Positions 45,976 through 62,346 of a stretch of 64,000 bases of DNA are shown piece after piece. Under the pieces are notes generated by a model. That model worked only from the letters and a program-made list of their open reading frames with translations. It did no database searches and was not told where the DNA came from. Source of the DNA: Sphingomonas anseongensis (GTDB lineage: Bacteria; Pseudomonadota; Alphaproteobacteria; Sphingomonadales; Sphingomonadaceae); NCBI RefSeq assembly GCF_023516495.1, contig NZ_JAMGBC010000001.1:372001-436000 (forward strand), in the 5' to 3' direction. Numbering within the stretch: the stretch's first letter is position 1; every line of letters begins with the position of its first letter. The position numbers and the translations under genes are program-made.

Positions 45976-46020
45976 AAAAATGGTGGACGCACCAGGGCTC
46001 GAACCTGCGACCCGCTAATT
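45976..46020 (-). repeat. tRNA-Lys 3'-half fragment (candidate att site)
   Basis: 45 bp that match 62266-62310 at 41 positions. Read on the minus strand it gives the 3' side of the anticodon arm, the T arm with TTCGAGC, the acceptor strand TGCGTCC, A and CCA of tRNA-Lys; homology stops in the anticodon loop. There is no 5' half, and the outermost T-stem pair is mismatched, so it is not a working tRNA. Its orientation matches the intact gene, as expected for the far end of an element integrated into a tRNA 3' end. Confidence 0.8.
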
Positions 46021-46084: not shown

Positions 46085-47377
46085 TCACCCCCGCAGGTCG
46101 CGGATTCTGGACGCCTTTCCCGCCGAGCGCTCGATGCCCAGCGGTTCGCACAGAAGTACCGATACGGAAATTCCGATCACGTTTTTGATGTGGTGACGAA
46201 GCTCGTCGGCGGCCTCGCGGGCATTGTCCGGCGACAGGCCTGGCTTGGTCTCGACGTGGACGCTGACCTCGTCCAGTCGATGGGGACGAGCGACCTCGAT
46301 CCGGTAATGCGGCGCAAGGCCGGGACAGCGCAGGATCTGCTCCTCGATCTGGGTCGGGAAGACGTTGACCCCGCGAATGATGAACATGTCGTCCGAACGG
46401 CCCACGATCTTCGCGATTCTCCGCATCGGACCGTTGCTGCCAGGCAGCAGCCGCGTGAGATCGCGAGTCCGGTAGCGGACCACTGGCATCGCCTCCTTGG
46501 TCAGCGAGGTGAAGACGAGCTCGCCTTCTTCGCCGTCCGGCAGGACTTCGCCGCTCTCTGGGTCGATGATCTCCGGATAGAAATGGTCCTCCCAGATCGT
46601 CGGACCGTCTTTCGTCGCCACATACTCCTGCGCGACTCCCGGGCCCATGACCTCGGACAGGCCGTAAATGTCGACGGCGTCGATCCCCGTTGCACCCTCG
46701 ATCTCCCCCCGCATCGCCTCGGTCCACGGCTCTGCTCCGAAAATGCCGGTCTTGAGGCTCGTGCTTCTGGGATCGATTCCGCGGCGGCGGAATTCGTCGA
46801 CGAGGCTAAGCATGTAGCTGGGGGTCACCATGATGATGTCCGGCTCGAAATCCAGGATCAGGTCGATCTGGCGCTCGGTCTGGCCGCCCGAGACCGGGAT
46901 TACCGTGCAACCGAGAAGCTCTGCCCCGTAATGCGCACCGAGACCCCCGGTAAATAGGCCATAGCCATAGGCGATGTGGACCTTCATGCCTGCGCGCCCG
47001 CCAGCCGCCTTGATCGATCGCGCGACAAGTGCCGACCATCTTGCGATGTCATTCTTTGTGTAGCCGACGACCGTCGGCTTGCCAGTCGTTCCCGATGACG
47101 CATGGATCCGCGCGACACGGTCCATCGGCACCGCAAAGAAGCCGAAGGGATAGTTGTCTCGAAGGTCAGCCTTCGTCGTAAATGGAAACCGCGCAAGGTC
47201 GGAGAGCGACCGCAAGTCCTCGGGCTTCACCCCTGCTTCGTCGAACTTGCGGGAATAGGCTGGATTGTTCGCATAAGCGTGCGCAAGCGTGGCCCGCAGG
47301 CGCTCGAGTTGCAGAGCGCGAAGCTCGCCCTGGCTGAGCCGGTCATTGGCGTCGATATCGAAGTCGCCGGTTCCCAT
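46085..47377 (-). CDS. paaK: Phenylacetate-CoA ligase-type adenylate-forming enzyme
   Basis: 430 residues from ATG 47377 with AGAGGA upstream; the frame opens at 47422. Adenylates an aryl acid and makes its CoA thioester. Motifs: RIHASSGTTGKPTVVGYT (phosphate loop), YGYGLFTGGLGAHYGAE, DIYGLSEVMGPGVAQE, and RYRTRDLTRLL with VGRSDDMFIIRGVNVFPTQIEEQIL at the C-terminal hinge. This is the PaaK pattern and length. No paaABCDE ring-epoxidase genes are in the window, so its acid could be phenylacetate or a related one. A HpaR-type operator lies 56 bp upstream, shared with the divergent aldehyde dehydrogenase. Confidence 0.88.
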   Translation of the reverse strand: MGTGDFDIDANDRLSQGELRALQLERLRATLAHAYANNPAYSRKFDEAGVKPEDLRSLSDLARFPFTTKADLRDNYPFGFFAVPMDRVARIHASSGTTGKPTVVGYTKNDIARWSALVARSIKAAGGRAGMKVHIAYGYGLFTGGLGAHYGAELLGCTVIPVSGGQTERQIDLILDFEPDIIMVTPSYMLSLVDEFRRRGIDPRSTSLKTGIFGAEPWTEAMRGEIEGATGIDAVDIYGLSEVMGPGVAQEYVATKDGPTIWEDHFYPEIIDPESGEVLPDGEEGELVFTSLTKEAMPVVRYRTRDLTRLLPGSNGPMRRIAKIVGRSDDMFIIRGVNVFPTQIEEQILRCPGLAPHYRIEVARPHRLDEVSVHVETKPGLSPDNAREAADELRHHIKNVIGISVSVLLCEPLGIERSAGKASRIRDLRG

Positions 47378-47432: not shown

Positions 47433-47444
47433 TGAACATGTTAA
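47433..47444. promoter_or_regulatory. Putative HpaR operator 1 (paaK / aldehyde dehydrogenase)
   Basis: TGAACATGTTAA, one mismatch from the 12-bp palindrome TTAACATGTTAA. It lies 56 bp before paaK and 67 bp before the divergent aldehyde dehydrogenase start. Confidence 0.65.
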
Positions 47445-47510
47445 ATAACCACTGGACTCGTTCGCGGCTTCGGTTCCAGACTGTCCATTCGCTCAAAGAG
47501 GATCGCCGAC

Positions 47511-48929
47511 ATGCAAGACGTGATGGAACGCTATGGTCTCATCATCTCGGGCGAGAAGGTCCCGACATCCGATTATTTCGAAATTCGCGATCCCGGAACC
47601 GGCGAGCTCGTCGGCGAATGCCCGGTTGCAACGAAGCAGGACCTTGATCGCGCTGTCGCTTCGGCGCGTGACGCGTTCAAGAGCTGGAGTAAGTCGACCG
47701 ATCAGGAGAGGAAGGACGCGGTCAATCGCATCGCGGACACCATTCACGCAAATATGGAAGAGCTCGCCGAGCTTCTGACGCGCGAGCAGGGGAAGCCGCT
47801 CAACGGCCTGGGATCACGATTCGAACTCCATGGCGCCGAAGCCTGGGCTCGGCACACCGGGACGCTGGAGCTTCCGGTCGAAGTGCTCCAAGACGACGAG
47901 ACGGGCCGTGTCGAGCTCCACCGCAAGCCCCTCGGAGTCGTCGGTTCGATCACTCCGTGGAATTTCCCGATTCTCATCGCGATCTGGCACATCGTTCCGG
48001 CGATCCGCGCCGGCAACACGGTCGTTATCAAGCCGTCGCCGTACACGCCGCTCAGTACTATCCGCCTTGTCCAAATGCTCAACGAGGTGCTTCCGAAAGG
48101 CGTTCTGAACGTGGTCGCAGGCCGCGACGACCTGGGCCAGATGATGACCGAGCATCCGGATATCCAGAAGATCGTCTTCACCGGGTCCTGCGCCACCGGC
48201 AAGAAAGTGATGCAGGCCGCGTCGAGCAACCTCAAGCGGGTCACGCTCGAGCTTGGGGGCAACGACGCCGGGATCGTTCTTCCTGATGCAAACCCAAAGG
48301 AGATCGCCGAACGGCTCTTCTGGGGCGCATTCATCAACAACGGCCAGACGTGCGCCGCATTGAAGCGGCTCTACGTACCCGACAATATCTACGACGAGGT
48401 GTGCGAAGCGCTCGTCGACTATGCGAAGAACGTCCAGGTCGGTCACGGGCTGGCTGAAGACAGCGTTCTCGGGCCGATCCAGAACAAGATGCAGTATGAG
48501 AAGGTCGTCGACCTCGTCGAAGACGCGAAGCGCAACGGCGCGCGCGTCCTGTGCGGCGGCGAGCCGCCGTCCGGCCCCGGCTTCTTCTATCCTGTTACGA
48601 TCGTCGCCGATGCAAAGGACGGCATGAGGATCGTCGACGAGGAGCAGTTCGGGCCCGTGCTTCCAGTCATCCGCTACACCGACCTCGAAGAAGCGATCGA
48701 GCGCGCGAATAGCCTCGACGTCGGCTTGGGCGGATCAGCCTGGTCGTCGGACCCCGAAAAGGCGAAGGCTGTCGCCGCGCGGCTGGAATGCGGGACAGCC
48801 TGGGTCAACAACCACGGGGCGATCAAGCCTTTCGCCCCGTTCGGCGGGGTGAAGGGATCAGGCCTTGGGGTCGAGTTCGGGGAGCTGGGCCTTAAGGAAT
48901 ATACCTCGGTCCAGGTCGTCCATCAGTGA
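47511..48929 (+). CDS. NAD(P)-dependent aldehyde dehydrogenase
   Basis: 472 residues. Catalytic Cys281 in NNGQTCAALKR, general-base Glu247 in LELGGN, and the cofactor motifs GSITPWNFPI and FTGSCATGKK are all present. In this island it most likely oxidises the arylacetaldehyde made by the amine oxidase (60004-61971) to the arylacetate, as PadA/FeaB does in E. coli, but sequence alone does not fix the substrate. Its 3' end overlaps convergent lysR by 7 bp. Confidence 0.88.
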   Translation: MQDVMERYGLIISGEKVPTSDYFEIRDPGTGELVGECPVATKQDLDRAVASARDAFKSWSKSTDQERKDAVNRIADTIHANMEELAELLTREQGKPLNGLGSRFELHGAEAWARHTGTLELPVEVLQDDETGRVELHRKPLGVVGSITPWNFPILIAIWHIVPAIRAGNTVVIKPSPYTPLSTIRLVQMLNEVLPKGVLNVVAGRDDLGQMMTEHPDIQKIVFTGSCATGKKVMQAASSNLKRVTLELGGNDAGIVLPDANPKEIAERLFWGAFINNGQTCAALKRLYVPDNIYDEVCEALVDYAKNVQVGHGLAEDSVLGPIQNKMQYEKVVDLVEDAKRNGARVLCGGEPPSGPGFFYPVTIVADAKDGMRIVDEEQFGPVLPVIRYTDLEEAIERANSLDVGLGGSAWSSDPEKAKAVAARLECGTAWVNNHGAIKPFAPFGGVKGSGLGVEFGELGLKEYTSVQVVHQ

Positions 48930-49822
48930 GCGGCCGCGGCTGACCTCGACATCATCTCCAGCGTGTCGAGGAAAATGCGGACCTTAACTGGCATTAGCCG
49001 TCTCGCGGGCAGGAGCGCGTAGACCCGGAGCGGCGCGCATTCGAAATCTTCGAGGAGCCTGACGAGCCTGCCTTCGGCGACCGCGGGCTCGCAAAAGGTC
49101 GAGGTGATCCGCGCAACCCCGAGCCCCTCTATCGCCGCCTGCAAGCGGATGCCTGCGTTCGAGCTGCGGAGCCGCGGGGCCACGACAGGGACCGAGAGGT
49201 GGCCGCCGGCCAAATCCGTGAAGTCCCATACGGTGTCCGATGCCGCTGCGAGTAAGGGCAATGACTTTAGGTCGTATGGACTCTGCGGCCGCTCGACCGC
49301 CTCGAAAAAGGGCGGCGAGCAGAACAGTCCGCGCTCCAGCGAAAAGACCCGCCGAACTGCCCCGCTCGTGGACGGTAGCTCGCGATCAACCATCGTAAAG
49401 ACGATGTCATATTGCTGGTCGAACAGGTTCACCGGCTGATGCTCGACGTCTATGTCGACCTCCAGCTCCGGATGGTCGGTGAGCATCGAACAGGCCACAG
49501 CGCCCAGGTGATGAGCGCCAAATTCGTAGGGCGCGGCGATGCGCAGGCGGCCGCTGACGGTCTCGCCCATGGCGGCCGCATTGCCTAGCGCTTCCCGCAA
49601 ATGGCCGAACAATGGGGACATCTCGCGATAGAGCGACTCGCCTGGCTCCGTTAATCGAAGTCGGCGCGTCGTGCGCTCGATCAGGCGCGTGCCGAGCCGT
49701 GCCTCCAGCCGCGCAACCGAGGCGCTGACACTCGACTTTGGTCGCCGCAGCACTCGAGCCGCTCCGCTGAAGCTGCCGTGGTCGATCACATGGCAGAAGA
49801 TATCCAGATCTTCCCAGTTCAT
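48923..49822 (-). CDS. LysR-family transcriptional regulator
   Basis: 299 residues. The winged HTH is at the N-terminus (FCHVIDHGSFSGAARVLRRPKSSVSASVARLEARLGTRLIERTTRRLRLTEPGESLYREM), followed by a periplasmic-binding-like effector domain. Divergent from the Rieske oxygenase operon, with an 8-bp inverted repeat at its own start codon. Most likely regulates that operon and itself. Confidence 0.9.
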   Translation of the reverse strand: MNWEDLDIFCHVIDHGSFSGAARVLRRPKSSVSASVARLEARLGTRLIERTTRRLRLTEPGESLYREMSPLFGHLREALGNAAAMGETVSGRLRIAAPYEFGAHHLGAVACSMLTDHPELEVDIDVEHQPVNLFDQQYDIVFTMVDRELPSTSGAVRRVFSLERGLFCSPPFFEAVERPQSPYDLKSLPLLAAASDTVWDFTDLAGGHLSVPVVAPRLRSSNAGIRLQAAIEGLGVARITSTFCEPAVAEGRLVRLLEDFECAPLRVYALLPARRLMPVKVRIFLDTLEMMSRSAAAAH

Positions 49823-49842
49823 TGTCCAGATCAGTGGACAAT
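49821..49842. promoter_or_regulatory. Inverted repeat at the lysR start (candidate LysR operator)
   Basis: ATTGTCCA-N6-TGGACAAT, a perfect 8-bp inverted repeat with a 6-bp spacer, overlaps the lysR start codon and lies about 110 bp before the divergent Rieske gene. Its position fits autoregulation. Confidence 0.6.
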
Positions 49843-49951
49843 CTTTCCAGAAAAGCCAGCTAAATTTGTGTGATCTTATGGACTAGAAGCTATCCATGGC
49901 CGGACTTCGCACCGGCGCTCCGGCTGCGCCGGACGGGACGGGAGACGATCG

Positions 49952-51037
49952 ATGTTCCTGAAGAACTGCTGGTACATGGGCGGCTGGGATCATGAGGTCA
50001 TGGACGGCAAGCTGCTCGAACGGCGAATCCTGGATCAGCCGGTCGTTTTTTATCGAGGCGAAAGCGGTCAGATCGTCGCCCTCGACAATCGCTGCTGCCA
50101 TCGCGGAGCGAAGCTTTCGCAGGGCCGGATCGAGGGCGATTGCGTTCGCTGCATGTACCACGGCCTGAAGTTCGATCCGTCCGGCAAGTGCGTGCAGATC
50201 CCCGGCCAGGAGCGAATTCCCCCTCAGCTGGGGGTCAAAAGCTATCCGCTCGTCGAGAAGCAGCACTGCATGTGGATCTGGATGGGGGACCCGGCGCTCG
50301 CCGACCCGGACGAGATTCTCGACATCCCTTACCTTGACGATCCTGAGTGGAAGGGCATTCCGGCATACCTCCACTATGATGCCAACTATCTGCTGATCGT
50401 CGACAACCTCAGCGACTTCAACCACCTCGCCTTTGTCCACACGAACACGCTCGGCGGGTCGGAAGAATATGCCTACGTAACCAAGCCGGTGTCGATCGAC
50501 CGCTTGCCAAATGGCTTCCATGTCGAGCGTTGGCACAAGAACAGCGATCCGCCGCCTTATCTGCGCAAGGTTATCGAGAACAAAAACGACAAGGTGGACC
50601 GGCGCAACATCGCGCGCATGTTGATTCCCGGGATCTTCCTGATGGACACGATGTTCGCTCCGGCAGGCATGGGCGCCGAAGGGGAGGGGAAGCCTGGCAC
50701 GCTCGAATTCCGCAACTGCCAGTTCATGACTCCCGAGACTGAACGCACCACGCACTTCTTCTGGAACTATCTCAACGACTTCGAAGGCGCGGACTACACC
50801 ATCTCAATGTCACTCCTCGACAGTCTGATCGAGGGGTTCATGGAGGACAAGGAGATCATTGAGGAGCAGCAGAAAATGCTGGATGCCGACCCCAGCTTCA
50901 AGCTTGTGGCGGTCGCTTCAGACGTGGCTCTCTCGCATTTCCGCTACATCATGGACAAGCTGATCCAGGCGGAGCAGGCCGGAGAGGCGCCGCCGAAGTT
51001 TGCGCAGCAGCTTTCGCCGGCGATCGCCGCGGAATGA
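49952..51037 (+). CDS. Rieske oxygenase, VanA-like (O-demethylase type)
   Basis: 361 residues. The Rieske 2Fe-2S ligands are Cys48, His50, Cys67 and His70; the mononuclear iron site is Asn152-x2-Asp155-x2-His158-x4-His163 (DNLSDFNHLAFVH). Size and order match the vanillate O-demethylase oxygenase VanA and its relatives. In this island, a natural substrate would be homovanillate or another methoxy- or hydroxyphenylacetate, giving homoprotocatechuate; that is an inference. The reductase follows 12 bp downstream. Confidence 0.88.
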   Translation: MFLKNCWYMGGWDHEVMDGKLLERRILDQPVVFYRGESGQIVALDNRCCHRGAKLSQGRIEGDCVRCMYHGLKFDPSGKCVQIPGQERIPPQLGVKSYPLVEKQHCMWIWMGDPALADPDEILDIPYLDDPEWKGIPAYLHYDANYLLIVDNLSDFNHLAFVHTNTLGGSEEYAYVTKPVSIDRLPNGFHVERWHKNSDPPPYLRKVIENKNDKVDRRNIARMLIPGIFLMDTMFAPAGMGAEGEGKPGTLEFRNCQFMTPETERTTHFFWNYLNDFEGADYTISMSLLDSLIEGFMEDKEIIEEQQKMLDADPSFKLVAVASDVALSHFRYIMDKLIQAEQAGEAPPKFAQQLSPAIAAE

Positions 51038-51049
51038 CCGTCGCTTGAA

Positions 51050-52039
51050 ATGCACGGAACGATTGCTGCGGACGCGGGCGTGACGAGCGCGCAACTGCTG
51101 ACTGTGCAGGTCGCCGACGCCCGCGCTGAAGCGCGCGACGTGATGACTTTCGAGCTTCGCGCGCCGGGCGGCGGAGAGCTTCCGCCGTTCGAGCCCGGAT
51201 CGCATCTCGACCTCCATCTCCCTAACGGCCTGCTTCGCCAATATTCGCTGACCAATGACTGGCGAGAGCGGGACCGCTACGTGATCGGAGTCGGCCGAGC
51301 GGAAAGCAGCCGCGGCGGATCCGTTTATGTTCATTCGCACCTCCGCGCGGGCATGCAGCTCAAGATCAGCCCACCACGGAACAACTTCCCGCTCGATCCG
51401 GACGCCGAGCGCTTCCTTTTCATAGCGGGCGGGATCGGCGTCACTCCGATCATGGCAATGATCCGCTGGTGCGTCGCGCACTCGAGGCCTTGGCGGATCA
51501 TCTACGCGTCGCGGAGTCGTCAGCGCGCGGCCTTCTACGAAGAGATTTGCGGTCTCGCTGAGTCCTGCGCGCAGTTCCACTTCGACGATGAAGCGGGACA
51601 AGTACTCGATGTCGCGCAGGCGGTGTCGAGCTGGTCGCCGGGCGAGCGCATCTATTGCTGTGGCCCGACGCCGCTGATGGAGGCGGTCAAATCGCTCACC
51701 GCGAAATTGCCTGCGGACACGGTGCGGTTCGAATGGTTCACGGTTCCGGAGAGCGATGAGCCGGAGGAGTCCGACAGCTTCTCGGTGCGGCTTGAGCGTA
51801 GCGGCAAGGAGTTCCAGGTGCCGGCCGACAGGTCGATTCTGGAAGTGCTCGAGGAAAACGGATTCGAGGTACCCTTCTCGTGCCGCGAGGGGCTCTGCGG
51901 CACCTGCCTGACCAACGTGCTAGCGGGGGAGCCAGACCATCGCGACTATGTTCTCAGCGACGAGGAACGCGCGTCGGGTAAGCTGATGACGATCTGCTGC
52001 TCGCGTGCGAAGTCTGCAAGCCTTACCCTCGATCTCTAG
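51050..52039 (+). CDS. VanB-type FMN/2Fe-2S oxidoreductase
   Basis: 329 residues. FMN-binding FPR-like domain (FEPGSHLDLHLPNGLLRQYSL), NAD-binding domain (LFIAGGIGVTPIMAMIRW, YCCGPTPLMEAV) and a C-terminal plant-type ferredoxin domain (VPFSCREGLCGTCLTNVLAG). Electron donor for the oxygenase encoded 12 bp upstream. The N-terminus (MHGTIAADAGVTSAQLLT) has little ribosome-site support, but no better start exists. Confidence 0.92.
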   Translation: MHGTIAADAGVTSAQLLTVQVADARAEARDVMTFELRAPGGGELPPFEPGSHLDLHLPNGLLRQYSLTNDWRERDRYVIGVGRAESSRGGSVYVHSHLRAGMQLKISPPRNNFPLDPDAERFLFIAGGIGVTPIMAMIRWCVAHSRPWRIIYASRSRQRAAFYEEICGLAESCAQFHFDDEAGQVLDVAQAVSSWSPGERIYCCGPTPLMEAVKSLTAKLPADTVRFEWFTVPESDEPEESDSFSVRLERSGKEFQVPADRSILEVLEENGFEVPFSCREGLCGTCLTNVLAGEPDHRDYVLSDEERASGKLMTICCSRAKSASLTLDL

Positions 52040-52091
52040 GTTGGATCGAGCGTCGAAACGGCAGCGCTGAAACCGGCTTCCCCCCCACAAT

Positions 52092-52103
52092 TTAACATGT
52101 TAA
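52092..52103. promoter_or_regulatory. Putative HpaR operator 2 (TonB receptor)
   Basis: Perfect palindrome TTAACATGTTAA, ending 50 bp before the TonB receptor start at 52154. Confidence 0.72.
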
Positions 52104-52153
52104 GCACATGGCATTGCCGCCGGACTTCAGGTGGCAGCGGAGGGGGTTCACAA

Positions 52154-54481
52154 ATGTCACATGCTCGGCTTGCTGTCCTGTTTGCCACCACGTCTCTGAG
52201 CTGCATTGCGCTGGCTTCGCCAGCATTCGCGCAGACGGACCCGACAGGGACAACTCCGGCCGTTCAGCCGAACAATGCAGCGCCGAACGAGACCACGGTC
52301 GAGAGCGACAAGGTCAGCGAGGGCGTCGCACAGGCACCGCAGGACCAGGGCGTCTTTTCGCAAGACATCGTCGTCACGGCGCAAAAGCGCCGCGAACGCA
52401 TCCAGGATGTAGGCATTTCGATTACCGCCCTCTCAGGCGAAACGATCAAGACCCTCAACCTCTCGAACATGCAGCAGATCAGCCAGCAGGTTCCCAACCT
52501 GCAGGTGTCAACTTGGACGCCGGCTTTCACGACCTTCAACCTTCGTGGAATCTCGCAGAACAACTTCCAGGACAATCTCGAAGCGCCCGTCGCCGTCTAC
52601 ATGGACGAGGTCTACGTCGGCAGCATGAATGCGCTTGGCCTGCCGATGTTCGACGTAGAGCGAGTGGAGGTGCTTCGCGGGCCGCAGGGCACGCTTTTCG
52701 GACGGAACGCGACCGGCGGCCTCATCCAGTTCGTGAGCAACGCCGCCGACGAGACTCGTCTCAACGGCTATGTTGAGGGCGAGGTTGCGGAGTTCGATAC
52801 GCGCCGCCTGGAGGGCGCCATCGGCGGCGGCATCACACCGGGCATTCGGGCGCGCATTGCCGGATTCTGGACGAAGTCGGACGGCTGGATGAAGCCGGGT
52901 TTCAATCCGATCCTTGGAAGAAAGGCGCTCGGTCGGACGAGCCAGGGCACCGACGGCTGGGCGCTTCGTGCAAACGTTCAAGCAGACCTGACGCCCGACA
53001 CGTTGCTGAGCCTCACCGGCTTCTACTCCAAGGACAATGACGTCCCGACTGGTCAGTATATCGTCCGCTTCGCCGGATTTGATCCAAATACGGGTCTCGG
53101 AGTTGACGCAGGACCGCCGATCACGGGCAGCGTTTTCCGGCACGCATCTGACGAGGATACCGGCTTTGACCGCAAGGTTGTCTCGCTCACGGCGAAGCTG
53201 ACGCACCGGATCACCGACAACGTCGATTTCACCTACATCGGAAACTACAGCAAGCTCGACAAGAACTACATCGAAGACGCAGGCGGCGGCCTGACCTTCT
53301 TCCCCTTTCAGACGATCGCTCATCACAAGCAATGGTCGAATGAAGCTCGTCTTTCGGGACACGCGCCCCGAATTCGTTGGCAGGCAGGCGTCTATTTCCT
53401 GAACATGGATTTCAACGGCGAATTCGACGCATCAGGCGAGGCCATCACCGGGGATCCGGACGGCCGCATCCAGGGCCTCACAGACCTCAAGTCGAAGAAC
53501 TGGTCGATCTTCGGCCAGGGCGAATATGATTTTACTCCGGAGCTGACGGGCATCGTCGGCCTGCGCTGGTCGCAGGACAACAAGAAGATCAAATTCCGCT
53601 CGACGGCGTTTAACGGGGCCCTTGGCCTGCCGGACGGCTTCGTCTTTTTCGACTACGCGAGTGAGATCGCCGCGAACCCGCAGTTCGCGGGTGACGACCA
53701 CATCGATTATGGCGACATCGCCGCACGCGCCCAGCTAAACTACAAGCCGAGCCGGGACCTGCTTTTCTATGCGTCGTACAACCGCGGCATCAAGGGCGGA
53801 AACTGGTCGCCCTCGCCGAGCGTCGTCCTTGCCGATTTCAAGCACAAGAACGAGGTGCTCGACTCGTATGAGCTCGGCGTGAAGTCGACGATCGCACCGG
53901 GGACGCGCCTCAATGCTGCGATCTTTTATTACGATTATCACGACTATCAGGCTTTTTCGCTGACCAACCTTCAGCCGCAGGTCGCAAATTCGGACGCGAC
54001 GGTGAAGGGCGCGGAAATCGAGCTCTTCTCGCGGCCGGTCAAAAATCTCGACGTCGCGCTCGGCGCAGCCTTGCTGGATTCGAACGTCGACTTCGTTCCG
54101 GCGGTCTTCCCCGGCACCGGAACGACCGATGCGGACTTGCCTCAGGCGCCGCACTTCAGCCTGAACGCCCTGGCGCGCTACACCGTACCGGTCGGATTTG
54201 CGAACCTCGCCTTCCAGGTGGATGGCCGGTACGCGAGCAAGCATTTCCTCGAAGGGACCAACTCCGAAGTCTCGTTCCAAAAGGGCTATGCCGTCGGCAA
54301 TGCGTCCATCTCGCTGACGTCGAACGATGAGCGCTGGCAGGGCATTTTGTGGGTGAAGAATTTCACCAACACCAAGTACAAGGTCTACAACCTCGATCTC
54401 GGTCTCGCCGGCTTCGTCGAGCAGATGTACGCCCCGCCGCGGCAGATCGGCGCGACCCTTCGTTTCGGCTTCAAGGGATAG
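52154..54481 (+). CDS. TonB-dependent outer-membrane receptor
   Basis: 775 residues from ATG 52154 (GGAGGGG upstream; the frame opens at 52097 but that start lies in the operator region). Residues 1-26 are a signal peptide (ending ALASPAFAQ). The plug domain has DIVVTAQKRRERIQDVGISITALSGETIKTLNLSNMQQISQQVPNLQV, the standard sphingomonad TBDT pattern, followed by a 22-strand barrel with the terminal aromatic RFGFKG. Its place in the island suggests uptake of an aromatic substrate rather than iron. Confidence 0.92.
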   Translation: MSHARLAVLFATTSLSCIALASPAFAQTDPTGTTPAVQPNNAAPNETTVESDKVSEGVAQAPQDQGVFSQDIVVTAQKRRERIQDVGISITALSGETIKTLNLSNMQQISQQVPNLQVSTWTPAFTTFNLRGISQNNFQDNLEAPVAVYMDEVYVGSMNALGLPMFDVERVEVLRGPQGTLFGRNATGGLIQFVSNAADETRLNGYVEGEVAEFDTRRLEGAIGGGITPGIRARIAGFWTKSDGWMKPGFNPILGRKALGRTSQGTDGWALRANVQADLTPDTLLSLTGFYSKDNDVPTGQYIVRFAGFDPNTGLGVDAGPPITGSVFRHASDEDTGFDRKVVSLTAKLTHRITDNVDFTYIGNYSKLDKNYIEDAGGGLTFFPFQTIAHHKQWSNEARLSGHAPRIRWQAGVYFLNMDFNGEFDASGEAITGDPDGRIQGLTDLKSKNWSIFGQGEYDFTPELTGIVGLRWSQDNKKIKFRSTAFNGALGLPDGFVFFDYASEIAANPQFAGDDHIDYGDIAARAQLNYKPSRDLLFYASYNRGIKGGNWSPSPSVVLADFKHKNEVLDSYELGVKSTIAPGTRLNAAIFYYDYHDYQAFSLTNLQPQVANSDATVKGAEIELFSRPVKNLDVALGAALLDSNVDFVPAVFPGTGTTDADLPQAPHFSLNALARYTVPVGFANLAFQVDGRYASKHFLEGTNSEVSFQKGYAVGNASISLTSNDERWQGILWVKNFTNTKYKVYNLDLGLAGFVEQMYAPPRQIGATLRFGFKG

Positions 54482-54493
54482 GTTCGGCCGCGG

Positions 54494-54979
54494 CTATTCG
54501 CCGCGGCTCCTTCCGTTCAGACGGTCCGTCACGCGACGCAGGAGTTCGTAAAGCTCCTGCATGTCGCCCTCGCCGATGACTCCGGTGATGCGCGAATATT
54601 CTGCTTCGTTTTTCGGTGCGAGCCGATCGAAGAGCTCGCGCGCCTGGGGCGTCAACGAGATGTAGGCGCGCCGCTGATCGCGGTCGGACTTGAAGCGGTT
54701 GACCAGGTTGCGCCGCTGGAGATTCTTCACGGTTCGCGTGGCGCTTGGCTTAAGTATGAAGACGCGCTCGGCGAGCTCGCCGATGTCGATCTGGTCAACT
54801 TCCCTAAGCGCCCGGATGATGCGCCATTCCTGTTCGTTGAGTCCGTGTTCCCGAAGCACTCGGCGAAAGCCTCGCATGACGGCTTCGCGGGCTCTGAGCA
54901 GCGCCATCGGAAGCGATTGCTCGAACGGTCGCATCGTGGGTGCTGCTGCGCTGCGCCGTCTCGAGCCTTCGTCAGCCAT
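54494..54979 (-). CDS. hpaR: HpaR-type MarR-family repressor
   Basis: 161 residues. The core reads SLPMALLRAREAVMRGFRRVLREHGLNEQEWRIIRALRE and FILKPSATRTVKNLQRRNLVNRFKSDRDQRRAYISLTPQARELFDRL, the pattern of the homoprotocatechuate operon repressor HpaR/HpcR (winged HTH with the beta-hairpin arginines). An Arg/Ser-rich extension precedes it. Last gene of a dapA-like/FAH/hpaR operon whose promoter has a perfect TTAACATGTTAA site, so it should be autoregulated. Confidence 0.85.
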   Translation of the reverse strand: MADEGSRRRSAAAPTMRPFEQSLPMALLRAREAVMRGFRRVLREHGLNEQEWRIIRALREVDQIDIGELAERVFILKPSATRTVKNLQRRNLVNRFKSDRDQRRAYISLTPQARELFDRLAPKNEAEYSRITGVIGEGDMQELYELLRRVTDRLNGRSRGE

Positions 54980-55826
54980 CCGTCACTCCGTTCCGCAACA
55001 TCCCGATACCAGGCGCCGAGACTTCGACCACGTCTCCGGGCTTGAGGTAAACCGGCGGATCGAACCTAGCCCCCGCGCCGGGCGGAGTTCCAGTTGAAAT
55101 GATGTCACCCGTCTTCAGAGTCGTGAACGTCGAAATGTAGGCGATCAAATCGGCGAAGCTGAAGATGAGGTTCGCCGTGCTGTCGTCCTGGCGAAGCTCG
55201 CCGTTGACTCGTGTCTGGAGCGCGAGCGAGTCGAATCCGTCGAACTCGTCGGCGGTGACCATCCACGGACCGATCGAACCGCTGAAGTCGAAGTTCTTGC
55301 CCTGCGTGACGTTGAACTTCGCGTGGCGAACCCAGTCGCGGATCGTTCCTTCGTTCATGAGCGTCAGGCCGGCTATATGCGCAGTCGCTTGTTCGCGCGC
55401 GATCCGGCGGCCGCCGCGCCCGATCACGATTGCGATCTCACCTTCATAATCGAGCTGCTCGCTCTCGCGCGGTCGGACCAGCGGGCGATCGTGCGCGGTG
55501 AACGACGTCGGCGCGCGCATGAACAGACTCGGGAATTTCGGAAGATTGGAGCCGTCGCGATATTCCTCGTTGCGATTGGCGTAATTGACGCCGACGCATA
55601 TGATCTTTTCTGGCGCTGGCAAGAAAGGCTCGAAACTGAAGTCCTCCAGCGCCGAGTCCGGCGAACATCCGGCGACATAGTTGTTCGCACGCTGGACGCC
55701 TGCCTCGCTCAAGAGCGGATGCGCTCCCTCGGGTGCCTCCAGCAGCGGCGTAAGATCGATCGCGCCGGCATCGGTGATCGCGGCCCAGCGTGCCGTGCCC
55801 TGAAATTCGACCTTTGCGATCTTCAC
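54972..55826 (-). CDS. Fumarylacetoacetate hydrolase-family enzyme (HpaG/HpaH-like)
   Basis: 284 residues. The FAH fold is clear: KIICVGVNYANRNEEYRD, the metal-binding Glu residues in QLDYEGEIAIVIGRGGRRI, then TQGKNFDFSGSIGPWMVTADEF and DIISTGTPPGAGARF. Relatives decarboxylate and isomerise ring-cleavage products (HpaG) or hydrate them. Here it probably handles the homoprotocatechuate products after HpaE and HpaF, but HpaG and HpaH cannot be told apart by eye. Only one such gene is present. It overlaps hpaR by 8 bp and the dapA-like gene by 4. Confidence 0.83.
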   Translation of the reverse strand: MKIAKVEFQGTARWAAITDAGAIDLTPLLEAPEGAHPLLSEAGVQRANNYVAGCSPDSALEDFSFEPFLPAPEKIICVGVNYANRNEEYRDGSNLPKFPSLFMRAPTSFTAHDRPLVRPRESEQLDYEGEIAIVIGRGGRRIAREQATAHIAGLTLMNEGTIRDWVRHAKFNVTQGKNFDFSGSIGPWMVTADEFDGFDSLALQTRVNGELRQDDSTANLIFSFADLIAYISTFTTLKTGDIISTGTPPGAGARFDPPVYLKPGDVVEVSAPGIGMLRNGVTDG

Positions 55827-56728
55827 GCCGCGGCGGCCGTCAGTAGTCCGGCGCGTTCCAGCACGGCGTCGAGCCGCCGTTCGAGCTCGGGTGTTGCGGG
55901 TGCCATTGGCAGGCGATGCTCGTTCTCGGGAATAAAGCCGAGGCGCTTCATCATATATTTGATGGGGATCGGGTTGGTGTCGAAGAAGACGGCCTGGTTG
56001 AGCTCAAGAAGGCGGTCATGAAGCGCGCGCGCTGCCGGAATATCGCTGTTCCACACGGCTTCGCAAAGCTGCGAAAGCACCTTGGGACGAAGATTGCCGA
56101 CGGCATTCATCAGCCCGCATGCCCCGATCGCCATCATCGGGAAGGAGAGCTCTTCAAGGCCAACGAAGATCCGGAATTCGTCTCCGAACTCGCAAAGGCA
56201 CTCGGTGACGAAGCCAAGATCGTTTGCGGCATGCTTCATACCGACGAAGGTGGGCGAGCGGTCCTTCAGCTCCTTAAACGTGTCGAGCGTTACCGAGACC
56301 GCCGTCCGGCCGGGGATGTGATAGACCATCCACGGACGGTCGTGTCGCTCAGCGAGACTGAGATAATAATCGATCAGGCCGCGCTGCGGCGGCTTGGAAT
56401 AATAAGGCGTGACGATCAGGAAGGCGTCCGCGCCCGCGCGCACTGCGTGATCCGTCAGGGCCTCGGTTTCCGCCAACGACTGCGAACCCGTGGCGGCAAC
56501 CACTGGTACCCGTCCGCCCGCAGCCTCGACAGCGACATCGACGATGCGGTTGCGCTCTTCGATCGTCAGCGATGCCGGTTCGGACGTGGTGCCATTGGCG
56601 AGTATCCCGTGCGAGCCTTCGCGGACCTGGAACTCAACCATCGCCGCATAAGCGTCATAGTCGACCGCTCCGTCGGTGAACGGAGTGATGAGCGGCGGGA
56701 CGGACCCCCTCAACCTGCTTATGTCCAT
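55823..56728 (-). CDS. DapA-like class I aldolase
   Basis: 301 residues of the dihydrodipicolinate synthase/N-acetylneuraminate lyase family. Schiff-base Lys is in FVGMKHAANDLGFV, the Tyr in WMVYHIPGRTAVS, and the phosphate-loop-like GTTSEPASLTIEERNRI is present. First gene of the operon that contains FAH and hpaR, so a catabolic role is likely, for example as a 4-hydroxy-2-ketoheptane-1,7-dioate aldolase in place of the unrelated HpaI, which is not in the window. That assignment is inference. Confidence 0.82.
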   Translation of the reverse strand: MDISRLRGSVPPLITPFTDGAVDYDAYAAMVEFQVREGSHGILANGTTSEPASLTIEERNRIVDVAVEAAGGRVPVVAATGSQSLAETEALTDHAVRAGADAFLIVTPYYSKPPQRGLIDYYLSLAERHDRPWMVYHIPGRTAVSVTLDTFKELKDRSPTFVGMKHAANDLGFVTECLCEFGDEFRIFVGLEELSFPMMAIGACGLMNAVGNLRPKVLSQLCEAVWNSDIPAARALHDRLLELNQAVFFDTNPIPIKYMMKRLGFIPENEHRLPMAPATPELERRLDAVLERAGLLTAAAA

Positions 56729-56766
56729 TCAAAGGTTTCCTTGCGCGCCCATGCCCCGGTTGATAT

Positions 56767-56778
56767 TTAACATGTTAA
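56767..56778. promoter_or_regulatory. Putative HpaR operator 3 (dapA-like / hpaF)
   Basis: Perfect palindrome TTAACATGTTAA, 38 bp before the dapA-like start and 22 bp before the hpaF start, so one site can cover both divergent operons including hpaR. Confidence 0.75.
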
Positions 56779-56800
56779 TCAGCCGAGCTGTGAGAGGTCA

Positions 56801-57196
56801 ATGCCGCACCTGAACATCGAATATTCCGCGAACCTGGCTGACGCGCTGGACATACAGGCGTTGGTCGACCGAATCCACGAAGCGGCGCTCGAGACCGGGA
56901 TATTCCCGCTCGGCGGCGTTCGCACCCGCGCGGAGCCGCGAGCGCACTATCGGATCGCGAACGGCAATCCCAACGCAGGATACATCCACATGATGGTTCG
57001 TATCGGATCCGGGCGCGAGGCGGAGACTCGTCGTGCGGCGGGAGAAAAGATTTTCAATGCGCTGTGCGATTTCACCGACGAGCTGTATCGGTCGCGCCCG
57101 CTCGCGCTCTCGTTCGAGCTGCATGAAATCCCGCCCGACATGGCGTGGAGGAAAAACAATCTGCACGAGCTGCTGAAGAAGGAAGCCGGCGAATGA
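56801..57196 (+). CDS. hpaF: 5-carboxymethyl-2-hydroxymuconate delta-isomerase
   Basis: 131 residues. Starts Met-Pro-His-Leu; after Met removal the N-terminal Pro is the catalytic base of this tautomerase-like enzyme. IEYSANLADALDIQALVDRIHEAALETGIFPLGGVRTRAEPRAHYRIANG and HMMVRIGSGRE fit the HpaF/CHMI family. It isomerises the ring-cleavage dehydrogenase product in homoprotocatechuate breakdown. Overlaps hpaE (ATGA). Confidence 0.92.
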   Translation: MPHLNIEYSANLADALDIQALVDRIHEAALETGIFPLGGVRTRAEPRAHYRIANGNPNAGYIHMMVRIGSGREAETRRAAGEKIFNALCDFTDELYRSRPLALSFELHEIPPDMAWRKNNLHELLKKEAGE

Positions 57197-58737
57197 GTGA
57201 ATCAGCGCCGGTACTGACGGACTCGGTCGCAAGCGCGAACCGACAGCGCGCCCTCGGCCATCTTGCGCCGTACGTTTCCGAGCCACTGGGCCATTTCATC
57301 GAAGGCCAGCCGACGTCTGGCGCGGGCGGTGAGCCGTTCGACGTGCTCGATCCATCGACGGGCGAGACGCTTGGCCAGGTCCTTGGGGGCATGGCGCAGG
57401 ACGTGGATGCTGCGGCGGCCGCAGCGAAGCGCGCATTCCCGGAATGGTCACGCACGAGCGGCGAAAAGCGTCGGAAGATCCTGCATTCGATTGCCGACGC
57501 AATTGAACAGCGAGCGGACGAGATTGCGGTCGTGGAATCGCTCGACACCGGTCAGCCGCTTCGCTTCATGAGCAAGGCTGCGCTCCGCGGCGCGGAAAAT
57601 TTCCGCTTCTTTGCCGACCGCGCCCCCGATGCGCAGGACGGGCTCGCTTTGCCGACGAGCGACCACCTCAATTACACAATGCGCCAGCCGATCGGTCCTG
57701 TGGGCGTGATCACGCCGTGGAACACGCCGTTCATGCTGTCGACGTGGAAGATCGCGCCAGCGCTCGCGGCCGGCTGCACCGTCGTTCACAAGCCCGCTGA
57801 GTGGAGCCCGTATAGTGCGAGGCTGTTGGTCGAGATTGCGCACCGAGCGGGATTACCGGCGGGAGTTTTCAACAGTGTCAATGGATTAGGCGAAGGGGCA
57901 GGGCGCGCGCTTACGGAGCATCCGGACATCAAGGCGATCGGCTTCGTCGGTGAATCGAGCACGGGAAGCGCGATCATGAGCCAGGGCGCGGCAACCCTGA
58001 AGCGAGTCCACTTCGAGCTCGGCGGCAAGAATCCGGTCGTGGTGTTCGACGATGCCGATCTCGATCGCGCGCTCGATGCGGTGGTCTTCATGATTTACAG
58101 CCTCAACGGGCAGCGCTGCACATCGTCGAGCCGGCTGCTCGTCCAGGATTCGATCCACGATGAATTCGTCGACCGGGTAGCCGAGCGGGTGGAGCGCCTG
58201 CGCGTCGGCGACCCGCTCGATCCCCAGACCGAGGTCGGCCCGCTCATTCACCCGCGCCATCTCGACAAGGTCATGGGCTATATGCAGGTGGCGCGCGGCG
58301 AGGGGGCCCGGATCCGCAGCGGCGGTGCCCGGCACGATTGCAGCCCCAAAGGCTATTTCGTGCAGCCGACTCTCTTCACCGGTGCCCACGCGCAAATGCG
58401 GATTGCGCGGGAAGAAATCTTCGGCCCGGTCCTTACGGTGATTCCGTTCGCCACCGAGGAGGACGCGATCGCCAAGGCCAACGACGTGGAGTACGGCCTG
58501 GCCGGCTATGTCTGGACCGGCGACGCCGGGCGCGCGCATCGTGTTGCGCAGGCAATCGAGGCCGGCATGGTCTGGGTCAATTCAGAGAACGTGCGGCACT
58601 TACCCACGCCGTTCGGCGGAATGAAATCGAGTGGGATCGGGCGCGATGGCGGCGATTACAGTTTCGACTTCTACATGGAGACGAAGAACATCGCGATCGG
58701 CCTGGGGCAACACAAGATCCCGAAGCTGGGCGCGTAG
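57193..58737 (+). CDS. hpaE: 5-carboxymethyl-2-hydroxymuconate semialdehyde dehydrogenase
   Basis: 514 residues from ATG 57193. Aldehyde dehydrogenase with Glu275 (HFELGGKNP) and catalytic Cys309 ([10 protein letters not shown]). The C-terminal signature [42 protein letters not shown] is specific to HpaE rather than general ALDHs. Oxidises the meta-cleavage semialdehyde of homoprotocatechuate. Second gene of the hpaFE operon. Confidence 0.93.
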
Positions 58738-58747
58738 TCGGCGCGAT

Positions 58748-59593
58748 TCAGGCCGCCTTCGCGGCTGCCGCCTGACCGACGTCCATTACGCCTGCAAAGC
58801 CACTGGTAGCGAAGATGGGGATGGGCTCGCAGAACCAGATTTCGCCGGAGCGTCCCTCGCATGCGCCGGCGACGGCGATTAGAGTCCGGATCTCAAACCC
58901 GCCTTGCCCAGCATCGCGAAGCGTTTCCTCGTCGGTATATGCGGTGAGAGCGTCACGGTCGTTCCGAGTCCATCGGCTTAGGAATTCGCGGTCCCACTCC
59001 TCGTTGATCTTCCCGGAGTTGGGAGTCGCAGGCCAATGCGAGATCCCGCCGGTCCCGATCAGCGCGATCCGCTCGGGGACTGCATCGCACGCGGCCCGGA
59101 TGGCCCGCCCGAACTCATAGGCTCGCAAAAGCGGAGTCAGCGGCGGCCCCTGGCAGTTGATGTTGGCCGGGATCACCGGGAGGTCGAAGCGCGGCGTGAG
59201 GAAGCTCAACGGGACCATGATGCCATGGTCGAACTTCCATTCCTCGGCATAAGCTACGTCCACGCGCTCCATCACCTTGGCAATGATACGCCGCGACAGG
59301 TCTGGATTGCCGGGAATCCTGCGCCGCTCGATCTTGAGCCACTCCGGGTCCTCGATCGGCCCTTCATAGTCTTCGGCCATGCCGATTCCGTAGGCTGGCA
59401 TGTTGTTCATGAAGAAATTGGCGAAATGCTCGGCGGCGATGACGATGATCGCGTCGGGGCGGCTCTCCTCGAGCGTGGCCCGAAGGCGATCGAGGGTGGC
59501 GAAGAAGGGATCGCGCACGGCGGGGTCCGCTCGGTCGGCGCGAGCCCTCATTCCCGGTCCGTGGCTCATGATTCCGGCGAAAACCAGGCTCAC
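58748..59593 (-). CDS. LigB-type class III extradiol dioxygenase catalytic subunit
   Basis: 281 residues. Fe ligands as in LigB: His11 (IMSHGPGM), His56 (VIAAEHFANFFMNNMPAYGIG) and a downstream acidic residue in NEEWDREFL; the catalytic His is in KFDHGIMVPLSF. Next to hpaE and hpaF, its likely substrate is 3,4-dihydroxyphenylacetate, but protocatechuate or gallate derivatives are possible. It overlaps the ligA-like gene by four bases and forms a two-gene operon with it. Confidence 0.85.
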   Translation of the reverse strand: MSLVFAGIMSHGPGMRARADRADPAVRDPFFATLDRLRATLEESRPDAIIVIAAEHFANFFMNNMPAYGIGMAEDYEGPIEDPEWLKIERRRIPGNPDLSRRIIAKVMERVDVAYAEEWKFDHGIMVPLSFLTPRFDLPVIPANINCQGPPLTPLLRAYEFGRAIRAACDAVPERIALIGTGGISHWPATPNSGKINEEWDREFLSRWTRNDRDALTAYTDEETLRDAGQGGFEIRTLIAVAGACEGRSGEIWFCEPIPIFATSGFAGVMDVGQAAAAKAA

Positions 59594-59910
59594 AGCGCGC
59601 CTCCCGCTCCGCCATCGACCGCGGCGTAGATTCCGCCGCGCACCTGTCCATGCTCGGCAAGCGCATCCTTCATCGCGGCGATATATTCGTCCCAGCTGAG
59701 CCCCCGCCAGGCGGCAAAGTGCATGAGGATCTGCCCGTTCACTCCAAGGATGTAGAGCTTGCCGATATCGTCGCGACGTATCGCCTCCGCTTCCTCCTCG
59801 GTCAGCCGATAGCGGCCGAGCACATCCTCGCGATCTGATGTAAAAGCGTGCTGCACGGCGGGGTCGCGATTAAGCTCGTAGAGCAGCTTCTGCAGGGCGT
59901 AGAGGCTCAT
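59590..59910 (-). CDS. LigA-type small subunit of extradiol dioxygenase
   Basis: 106 residues from ATG 59910 (a TTG at 59919 would add three). The LigA helical fold: LYALQKLLYELNRDPAVQHAFTSDREDVLGRYRLTEEEAEAIRRDDIGKLYILGVNGQILMHFAAWRGLSWDEYI. This subunit caps the active site in protocatechuate 4,5-dioxygenase. A separate LigA subunit beside hpaEF genes is unusual, since HpaD enzymes normally act alone. The operator at 59949-59960 lies 38 bp upstream. Confidence 0.85.
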   Translation of the reverse strand: MSLYALQKLLYELNRDPAVQHAFTSDREDVLGRYRLTEEEAEAIRRDDIGKLYILGVNGQILMHFAAWRGLSWDEYIAAMKDALAEHGQVRGGIYAAVDGGAGGAL

Positions 59911-59948
59911 CCTGGGCAATTCTACGACGCGGGTTGCCCGGCATCAAG

Positions 59949-59960
59949 TTAACCTGTTAA
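59949..59960. promoter_or_regulatory. Putative HpaR operator 4 (ligA-like / amine oxidase)
   Basis: TTAACCTGTTAA, one mismatch from TTAACATGTTAA, 38 bp before the ligA-like start and 43 bp before the divergent amine oxidase start. Confidence 0.62.
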
Positions 59961-60003: not shown

Positions 60004-61971
60004 ATGCGATGGATGCCTCGAGCGGTTGCGCTGGCGGTCGTCGCGGCGGGACCCGCCGTTGCGCAACAGGCGCCCACGAACCCGATGGACGCACTGACAG
60101 CGGACGAAATCAACCGAGCCGTCCAGGTTCTCACCGCCGCCGGGAAGGTGGATTCGAACACCCGCTATCCGACCATCACCCTTCAGGAGAACTCGAAGGA
60201 GTCTGTGCTCGCCTGGAGTCCGGGGAAGCCGTTCGCGAGGCTCGCCCGCGCCTCTTACCTCCGCGGTCCGGCTATCCACGAAGCCGTGGTCGACCTGACC
60301 CGAGGTTCCGTGGTTTCCGACCAGGAGGTGAAGGACCGCCAGTCGCTCATCCTGTTCGAGGAATTCCTCGGCGCGAGCGAGATCGCCAAGTCGGACCCGC
60401 GCTGGCAGGCGGCGATGCGCAAGCGCGGCTATACGAGTTACGACAAGATCATCTGCGCTCCGCTGACCGTCGGCCCCGTCGTTGACGAGCGGTATCGCGG
60501 CCTGAGGCTCCTTAACGTCCCCTGCTTCGACACCGCCGGCGCAGTGAATCACATCTACGGACGCCCAATCGAGAACGTCCTCGCAGTGGTCGACGTGCGC
60601 GCCCGCAAGGTTCTCGATGTGATCGATTTGGGCGTTGTGCCCGTTCCTGCGGAAGTGCCTTCCAGCGCCTACGATCCTGCGACGAGCACTCGGAACGGCT
60701 TGAAGCCGGTGCAGATCGTCTCGCCGGCCGGCGACAATTTCACGATCAACGGTTCGACCATCGAGTGGGACAAGTGGAGCTTCCACCTGCGCGTCGACAA
60801 GCGCGTCGGACCGGTGATCTCGCAGGTGAGGTACCGCGACGGCAATCAGGCACGCCAGATCGCCTATGAGATCAGCACGTCGGAAATGTTCGTTCCCTAC
60901 ATGGAACCGAGCAAGACCTGGGCCTACCGCGCCTACATGGACATCGGCGAATACGGTTTCGGCGCCTTGTCGTCTCCGCTGAAGCCTGGCTCCGACTGCC
61001 CAGTGAACGCGAAATTCCTCGATGCGATCATCTCGGACGATCACGGCAAGCCGTTGGCGCTGAAGAACGTCGTTTGCGTGTTCGAGCGCGACACGGGCGA
61101 GCCGCTGTGGCGCCACTACGAGGTATTCACGGAGTCGCACGAGAGCCGCCCCAACGTTGAGCTCGTGGTGCGGATGGCGCCGGAGGTCGGCAATTACGAC
61201 TATTTGCTTGACTATGCCTTCAACCGCCGCGGCGAAATCGAAGTTCGCGTGGGCGCTTACGGGATCGATGCAACCAAAGCCGTTGCCGCCAAGACGATGC
61301 AGGATGCGACCGCCAAGGAAGACACTGCCTACGGAACCCTGATCGCTCCAAACCTCGTCGGCGTGAACCACGATCATTTCATGAGTTTCCGCATCGATCT
61401 CGACGTAGACGGGCAGAAGAACCGGATGGTGGTCGACAAGTTCGTTCCGAAGGCTTTGACGAACAACCCGCTTCGGCGAAGCATCTGGCAGGTGGAGCGC
61501 TCGACAGTCGATTCCGAGCAGGCCTTCGAGCCCATGCACGAATCCGCCTGGTTCCGATTTGAAAGCGGCGACAGGAAGAACGCCCTTGGCAATCCGACCA
61601 GCTTCCAGCTGGCGCCCGGCCATTCGGATATCTCGATCCTCGCCGATGACGAGCCGCAGCAGCAGAGGGCGGCCTTCTCGGGCGCGTCATTTTGGGTGAC
61701 CCGCTATCATTCTGACGAATTGTACGCGGCGGGTGCCTATCCAAACCAGAACCGCAATGTCGAAGGGCTTCCGGCCTTCATCGAGAATCACGAATCGATT
61801 GCCGACCAGGACTTGGTCCTGTGGTACACGATCGGCTTCCGACATCAGACCCGCGCGGAGGACTGGCCGGTGATGCCGGGGCTCTGGCATTCGTTCAAGC
61901 TGCGGCCATTCAACTATTTCGACCGGAATCCGGCGATGGATACGCCCCCAGCCGAGCAACTCTCACACTGA
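60004..61971 (+). CDS. Periplasmic copper amine oxidase (TPQ-type)
   Basis: 655 residues from ATG 60004 (GGAGG upstream), with a signal peptide (residues 1-19, ending AGPAVAQ). Oxidises primary amines to aldehydes, ammonia and H2O2. The TPQ precursor is Tyr398 in GNYDYLLDY, the copper ligands are His456, His458 (NHDHF) and His629 (PGLWHSFKLRPF), and the base is Asp313 in YMDIGEYGFG. All key residues are present. In this island it is the natural entry point for tyramine-, dopamine- or methoxytyramine-like amines. Confidence 0.95.
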   Translation: MRWMPRAVALAVVAAGPAVAQQAPTNPMDALTADEINRAVQVLTAAGKVDSNTRYPTITLQENSKESVLAWSPGKPFARLARASYLRGPAIHEAVVDLTRGSVVSDQEVKDRQSLILFEEFLGASEIAKSDPRWQAAMRKRGYTSYDKIICAPLTVGPVVDERYRGLRLLNVPCFDTAGAVNHIYGRPIENVLAVVDVRARKVLDVIDLGVVPVPAEVPSSAYDPATSTRNGLKPVQIVSPAGDNFTINGSTIEWDKWSFHLRVDKRVGPVISQVRYRDGNQARQIAYEISTSEMFVPYMEPSKTWAYRAYMDIGEYGFGALSSPLKPGSDCPVNAKFLDAIISDDHGKPLALKNVVCVFERDTGEPLWRHYEVFTESHESRPNVELVVRMAPEVGNYDYLLDYAFNRRGEIEVRVGAYGIDATKAVAAKTMQDATAKEDTAYGTLIAPNLVGVNHDHFMSFRIDLDVDGQKNRMVVDKFVPKALTNNPLRRSIWQVERSTVDSEQAFEPMHESAWFRFESGDRKNALGNPTSFQLAPGHSDISILADDEPQQQRAAFSGASFWVTRYHSDELYAAGAYPNQNRNVEGLPAFIENHESIADQDLVLWYTIGFRHQTRAEDWPVMPGLWHSFKLRPFNYFDRNPAMDTPPAEQLSH

Positions 61972-62270: not shown

Positions 62271-62346
<76 letters not shown>

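Follow-up and report, generated by a model that had tools for sequence, protein, structure and literature searches.

We analysed a 64-kb window of the Sphingomonas anseongensis genome (contig NZ_JAMGBC010000001.1, positions 372,001 to 436,000; unless stated otherwise, coordinates are those of this window), in which a catabolic island, apparently for aromatic amines, carries four copies of a 12-bp palindrome, TTAACATGTTAA, and a gene for an HpaR-type regulator of the MarR family. The first-pass annotation of this DNA had reported two exact and two one-mismatch copies, and a scan of the 64 kb with up to two mismatches allowed bears this out: there are exactly four matches, exact at 52092 and 56767 and with one mismatch each at 47433 (TGAACATGTTAA) and 59949 (TTAACCTGTTAA). 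Site 1 (47433..47444) lies in the divergent promoter region between paaK on the reverse strand and an aldehyde dehydrogenase gene on the forward strand, at 55 and 66 bp from their respective start codons. Site 2 (52092..52103) is 50 bp upstream of the start codon of a TonB-dependent receptor. Site 3 (56767..56778) separates the reverse-strand dapA-FAH-hpaR genes (FAH, fumarylacetoacetate hydrolase family) from the forward-strand hpaFE genes, 38 and 22 bp from their start codons, and site 4 (59949..59960), whose two TTAA arms are intact, separates ligAB (reverse) from a copper amine oxidase gene (forward) at distances of 38 and 43 bp. All four, none of which is assigned a strand, thus stand 22 to 66 bp from a start codon, and all fall within the 575 bp (3.6%) of the 15,887-bp gene span that are non-coding.

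Such sites are rare elsewhere. With 100 shuffles of the window as control, a mean of 0.14 palindrome matches was obtained, and four were reached in 0 of the 100. The base composition of the window predicts about 0.56 sites with at most one mismatch for each genome and 0.004 for the 15,887-bp span where four are seen. We also ran the genome-wide scan with one mismatch allowed that had been proposed as a check. The whole assembly (2,226,119 bp) holds five such sites, namely the four in the non-coding DNA of the island and TTAACATGTCAA at G000:C1:440067, whereas a reversed control pattern gave no matches. The first-pass statement that no site occurs outside the island therefore holds within the window, even at two mismatches, but not for the genome. 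The fifth site overlaps the start codon of mutL (MutL by Pfam), about 4 kb past the window end. We considered mutL as a fifth member of the regulon and rejected it, because the same sequence stands at the start of mutL in genomes of the genus that lack the island-type DapA; of 71 genus genomes, two (G000 and G333) have this DapA. A site with at most one mismatch occurs in 25 of 61 genus genomes, the window's own included; among the 24 loci from the other genomes, 17 are at the start of mutL (16 plainly so and one consistent with this position), one is the island copy of G333 and six are elsewhere. Because it recurs at this position in genus relatives, we treat the mutL site as background.

The regulator encoded in the middle of the island (54494..54979, reverse strand, 161 aa) is indeed of the HpaR type, as first annotated: it scores 145.2 bits against TIGR02337 (cut-off 121.2), carries the PF01047 domain and matches PDB 7EL2 at E 2.6e-27. 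It is one of eight MarR-domain matches in its genome, six of which, HpaR included, exceed the cut-off. By sequence, the structures 7EL2 and 7EL3, which we take to be of HpaR from Acinetobacter baumannii, belong to the same family. The gene sits among genes for homoprotocatechuate meta-cleavage, with HpaE over its NCBIfam and HpaF over its Pfam cut-off, accompanied by FAH and DapA-family proteins.

The palindrome also resembles what is known of HpaR operators. In Yersinia pseudotuberculosis, both footprinted HpaR sites at hpaG1 hold TTAA-XXXX-TTAA, one of them overlapping the -10 element, and are stated to be similar to those of E. coli W (PMC7180172). TTAA-N4-TTAA is present at sites 2, 3 and 4, and site 1 has one arm only. 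In E. coli BL21(DE3), the region of hpaG and hpaR contains TTAATATGTTAA, the sole site at two mismatches or fewer in 31 kb; the looser TTAA-N4-TTAA pattern occurs once more in that stretch, inside tsr.

Across genomes, the palindrome is found together with hpaR. Among 298 genomes of the taxonomic family, HpaR is over cut-off in four and matched at E ≤ 1e-20 in seven; the exact palindrome occurs in five, which are all four with over-cut-off hpaR plus one other (G214), and it is missing from 293 of the 294 genomes without over-cut-off hpaR. The four genomes with over-cut-off hpaR have eight exact sites between them, all within about 8 kb of the gene, and the co-occurrence has a Fisher p of 1.6e-8 (5.4e-7 if all seven genomes are counted). 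At the level of the phylum, 53 of 398 genomes, our own included, encode HpaR at E ≤ 1e-30, in 51 of them over cut-off. We compared all 56 listed hpaR loci other than the window's own (Pseudomonadota). The exact palindrome is present in 17 of the 56, and a copy with at most one mismatch in 29, in 25 of these no more than about 1 kb from hpaR. No other 12-bp palindrome is as common in these loci, each of 59 other half-site permutations is found in at most 1 of 56, and the 17 exact loci span nine genera and five families. Likewise, TTAA-N4-TTAA occurs in 35 of 56 loci, whereas none of 15 other AT-only 4+4 palindromes exceeds 6 of 56. A search with a single HpaR sequence returned only three loci, including a weak match in a metagenome-assembled genome of Bacteroidota.

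These comparisons bear directly on the idea that the palindrome recurs by chance or as a shared promoter element without regulatory meaning. The palindrome does include a -10-like TAACAT, which a promoter scan found, weakly, on the reverse strand at site 3, where one promoter-like match overlaps the site. Promoter-like matches in general, however, are no commoner than chance (4 versus a shuffle mean of 3.2), no shuffle yielded four palindromes, and the near-complete restriction of the exact motif to family genomes with hpaR already largely contradicts such an explanation, to which we give hardly any weight.

Two side observations concern other hpaR loci. Locus L033 (G220) has two HpaR-like genes with palindromes next to them, both exact and near-exact; a third such gene lies about 16 kb away. 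Separately, a methylome survey describes a conserved unmethylated GATC upstream of hpaR in four organisms of the Gammaproteobacteria (PMC4752239); this would fit a bound protein there.

The wider arrangement of sites is conserved in one other cluster. In G067, which proved identical to Sphingomonas sp. SCN 67-18 in a 10-kb comparison, the gene order from aldehyde dehydrogenase to amine oxidase is the same, the proteins are 59-84% identical, and the same four intergenic regions contain sites. An additional DOPA-dioxygenase-type gene (DOPA, 3,4-dihydroxyphenylalanine) separates ligA from the amine oxidase gene in G067 and has one site on each side (L030 positions 14877, one mismatch, and 15754, exact), and upstream of its aldehyde dehydrogenase gene a pyridoxal-dependent decarboxylase replaces paaK. 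Conservation was counted in three of the four aligned regions, the ligA/amine oxidase region being aligned but left out of the count. There, 10, 12 and 12 of the 12 motif positions are conserved for sites 1, 2 and 3, and outside the motif 36/66, 39/95 and 31/60 positions, respectively (41-55%). The site 3 motif is identical in the window, G067 and G333, the last a genome from the genus of the window with one contig identical to Sphingomonas sp. Bin6.18. As an aside, the decarboxylase (L030 1070-2521) and the 4,5-DOPA-extradiol-dioxygenase-type gene (14882-15721) of G067 point to amines derived from DOPA or tyrosine as substrates.

Site 1 is the least certain of the four. Its left half is degenerate, so that with a single TTAA arm kept it falls off the TTAA-N4-TTAA pattern; the same holds in G067, where the counterpart (TACACATGTTAA) has two mismatches. 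It may be that the HpaR operators are sites 2 to 4 only, that site 1 is a decayed or chance half-site, and that PaaK and the aldehyde dehydrogenase stand outside the regulon. Nevertheless, site 1 is found at corresponding positions of this promoter region in the window and in G067, where its 10 of 12 identical positions compare with 36 of 66 outside, and a chance expectation of 0.004 sites in the roughly 15.9-kb span applies to it as well. We therefore regard the restriction to three operators as unlikely, though a good deal less so than the other alternatives considered here.

Several observations weigh against the proposal that the palindrome is the HpaR operator. G214 has one exact site but no HpaR. 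The exact site is absent from the three family genomes whose HpaR-like proteins are weaker matches; near the gene, two of these carry one-mismatch sites and the third carries none. One genus supplies 9 of the 17 exact-palindrome loci of the phylum comparison, and no TTAA-N4-TTAA occurs in the fetched stretch of 21 of the 56 loci. The missing TTAA arm of site 1, in both the window and G067, counts here too. The helix-turn-helix region of the window's HpaR reads KPSATR as compared with KPSLTG in 7EL2; within this region, which we take to be the recognition helix, our protein has PSATR and the other aligned relatives outside the genus and G067 have PSLT, PSMT or PSLS. Finally, G333 keeps the dapA/hpaF site but has no site upstream of ligA and no amine oxidase gene on that contig; on its hpaR contig VanB is directly beside hpaR, with no TonB receptor between. 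Set against these points are the family score of the regulator, the published operator pattern, the co-occurrence and the synteny, which support the candidate HpaR regulon put forward in the first-pass annotation. What the analysis shows directly is the family of the regulator, where the sites are, how rare and how conserved they are, and that they go with hpaR. On this basis, we consider it very probable that the palindrome is the operator of the HpaR encoded at 54494-54979 and acts on most operons of the island.

Gene identities across the island were assessed by Pfam and NCBIfam profile scores against curated cut-offs for 14 genes, and the names given in the first pass hold. Phenylacetate-CoA ligase (CoA, coenzyme A), PaaK, is encoded at 46085..47377 on the reverse strand (TIGR02155, 686.8 over 646.3) and the aldehyde dehydrogenase at 47511..48929 on the forward strand (PF00171). 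The TonB-dependent receptor (52154..54481, forward) has PF00593 and PF07715 and was scored as an open reading frame from 52097. On the reverse strand, the FAH-family protein (54972..55826, PF01557) would catalyse an HpaG-like step, with 162 bits against TIGR02303, below 276.4, and is followed upstream by a DapA-family aldolase (55823..56728, PF00701) that is probably of the hpa type. The best NCBIfam match of the latter is TIGR02313, 'HpaI-NOT-DapA' (291.7, below the cut-off of 396.7), and it also scores 256.8 over the dapA cut-off of 206.15. On the forward strand are 5-carboxymethyl-2-hydroxymuconate isomerase, HpaF (56801..57196; PF02962, 144.4 over 26.5; NF011605, 96.4, below 215), and 5-carboxymethyl-2-hydroxymuconate-semialdehyde dehydrogenase, HpaE (57193..58737; TIGR02299, 797.3 over 638.35, scored as an open reading frame from 57145). 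A LigB-type extradiol dioxygenase subunit (58748..59593, PF02900) and a LigA-type subunit (59590..59910, PF07746) follow on the reverse strand, and the copper amine oxidase gene (60004..61971, forward) has PF01179 at 438 bits and the primary-amine oxidase family NF008559 at 602.3, below 651. The island has no HpaD-type 3,4-dihydroxyphenylacetate 2,3-dioxygenase; its LigB subunit scores 27.4 against a TIGR02298 cut-off of 315.95, and the enzyme is of the LigAB type. The single FAH-family protein is below the HpaG cut-offs, and no second one is found among the 14 genes scanned. With one FAH protein and no HpaH, the DapA-family aldolase might combine hydration and cleavage.

The lysR and VanAB-like genes probably differ from the others in their regulation. 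A LysR regulator (48923..49822, reverse; PF00126, PF03466) and a VanA-type Rieske oxygenase (49952-51037) with its reductase (51050-52039), both on the forward strand (49952..52039; PF19112, PF00355, PF00111), do not lie under the palindrome. No copy at two mismatches or fewer occurs between lysR and vanA in the window, and none is there in G067 either. Directly before lysR stands instead a candidate LysR operator, TGTCCA-N6-TGGACA (49823..49840, no strand assigned), the one exact match of this pattern in the window. The oxygenase is thus probably under LysR rather than HpaR, and lysR with the VanAB-like oxygenase probably forms a separate sub-circuit. In consequence, the coverage of the island promoters that had been claimed for the palindrome stands for sites 2 to 4, is weakened at the degenerate site 1, and does not extend to the LysR and VanAB-like genes. 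The same evidence bears on whether this LysR, inherited with the cluster, could itself bind the palindrome in place of HpaR. The lysR gene is present in both syntenic clusters, in the window and in G067, as such a proposal would have it. Yet the lysR-vanA region lacks the palindrome in both genomes and in the window has its own perfect repeat, and the palindrome stands beside hpaR in many loci without this LysR, a LysR match at E ≤ 1e-20 being present in 1 of 67 other loci, at 27% identity. We have rejected LysR as the binder of the palindrome, and its chances appear very slim.

We propose, then, that an HpaR dimer sits on each site beside the operon starts and would block transcription close to the promoters. 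The genes kept silent would be those for the TonB receptor, copper amine oxidase, aldehyde dehydrogenase and PaaK, those for the LigAB ring-cleavage dioxygenase and HpaFE, and HpaR's own operon, dapA-FAH-hpaR. An arylacetate or a pathway intermediate is expected to bind HpaR and release it from the DNA, so that uptake, amine oxidation and ring degradation would be turned on together; binding, repression and derepression at the sites are predicted here from sequence. The earlier suggestion that hpaR is itself under site 3 agrees with its place as the last gene of dapA-FAH-hpaR behind that site; autoregulation is therefore predicted, and the loop would be self-limiting because hpaR ends the operon. 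The enzymes present suggest both the substrates and the order of steps: an amine would be converted to an aldehyde and then to an arylacetate, possibly with O-demethylation by the VanAB-like pair, to give homoprotocatechuate, which LigAB would cleave before HpaE, HpaF, the FAH protein and the DapA-type aldolase act.

The distribution of this gene set appears narrow. In the fetched stretches of 67 other HpaR or HpaR-like loci, some of them overlapping or from the same genome, there is no relative of the amine oxidase, PaaK or VanB at E ≤ 1e-20, and G333 is partial, so the wide regulon is known so far from the window and G067.

The island has ends that resemble those of an integrated element. 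A 48-nt copy (90% identity) of the 3'-half region of tRNA-Lys lies on the left (45973..46020, forward, from a repeat search), and the right boundary (62263..62346, reverse) comprises the repeat copy (62263-62310) and tRNA-Lys(ctt) (62271-62346). The two repeats are 16,290 bp apart and enclose all four sites. This tRNA-Lys(ctt) is near rodA in 25 of 30 genus loci, our own included, and in one it is further off and reversed. No integrase is found among the 14 island genes scanned and no empty integration site in the stretches of eight genus relatives. In one of these eight, G312, a distance of about 10.7 kb, filled with other content, separates the flanking TauE/MobA-like genes from tRNA-Lys. 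Base composition is not distinctive either, at 61.8% G+C inside the island versus 62.4% and 62.8% outside.

The presence of PaaK may connect the island to a second ring-degradation pathway. The island PaaK is the only one over cut-off in its own genome, which has one weak partial match besides, and the only match at E ≤ 1e-120 in 71 genus genomes. At about 650-658 kb of G000:C1, the genome has resident genes for PaaA, PaaC, PaaG and PaaZ, all over their cut-offs, together with a PaaE-like protein (402.6, below 420.8); no relative of the island PaaK is found in the 19.9-kb stretch around this cluster. Next to the resident paa genes are genes for an aromatic aminotransferase and for a protein whose domains are those of 2-oxoacid dehydrogenase E1. 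The stretch (L212, G000:C1:640000-659900) also holds a DOPA-dioxygenase-type gene. Plausibly, phenylalanine feeds the resident route to phenylacetyl-CoA and the island provides a further entry, from amines, under HpaR, although HpaR control of the PaaK entry depends on site 1, the weakest of the four. We see an even chance that HpaR here controls an entire movable module for amine catabolism and couples two ring-degradation pathways, with one operator type for uptake, amine and aldehyde oxidation, LigAB cleavage and the sole PaaK. If so, the island would channel phenylethylamine-type substrates into the resident paa cluster, which itself lacks a PaaK.

HpaR is reportedly the repressor of hpa-meta in E. 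coli W, for which Galan et al. 2003 is cited. The systems of E. coli W and Yersinia pseudotuberculosis (PMC7180172) resemble ours in having an HpaR-family MarR protein, TTAA-N4-TTAA near the meta-cleavage promoter and the regulator's own gene in the locus, and the targets described are the hpa operon and hpaR, with, in Yersinia, the type VI secretion system T6SS4 via a dissimilar site. The window differs in that its predicted sites also cover the TonB receptor, amine oxidase, aldehyde dehydrogenase, PaaK and LigAB, and in that hpaR is last in dapA-FAH-hpaR. In A. baumannii, pathway intermediates are stated to release HpaR at the 4-hydroxyphenylacetate (4-HPA) operon (PMC12718150); the regulon is described as that operon, and the sites of the window reach further. 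Proteins named HpaR in Xanthomonas campestris (vgrR-vgrS and virulence) and Agrobacterium fabrum (hydroxycinnamate degradation, with CoA-ester effectors), both described in PMC10458429, are MarR regulators with targets outside the hpa operon; they are alike by name, and their targets are other than those of the window. From a sphingomonad comes DesR of Sphingobium sp. SYK-6, a MarR-type repressor of aromatic catabolism with similar inverted repeats at several promoters (PMC6888825); it differs in its operator, GTTTGTGTCACATAC, and its targets, ligM, desB and desR. In the partial collection of literature searched, no link of HpaR to an amine oxidase was found, no HpaR regulon with a TonB receptor appeared by title or start of abstract, nor one that combines amine oxidase, TonB receptor and PaaK, no paper on a crystal structure of HpaR from A. 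baumannii turned up, and the 12-mer palindrome returned unrelated subjects only, judged by title.

The regulator and its operator are thus already known, and it is the gene set under them that appears to be new. A repressor best known for a single catabolic operon would here be extended to a multi-promoter regulon that takes in uptake, amine oxidation and ring cleavage. More broadly, an HpaR operator pattern recognizable at the sequence level across many Pseudomonadota (TTAA-N4-TTAA, most often TTAACATGTTAA) should allow HpaR regulons to be read from genomes.

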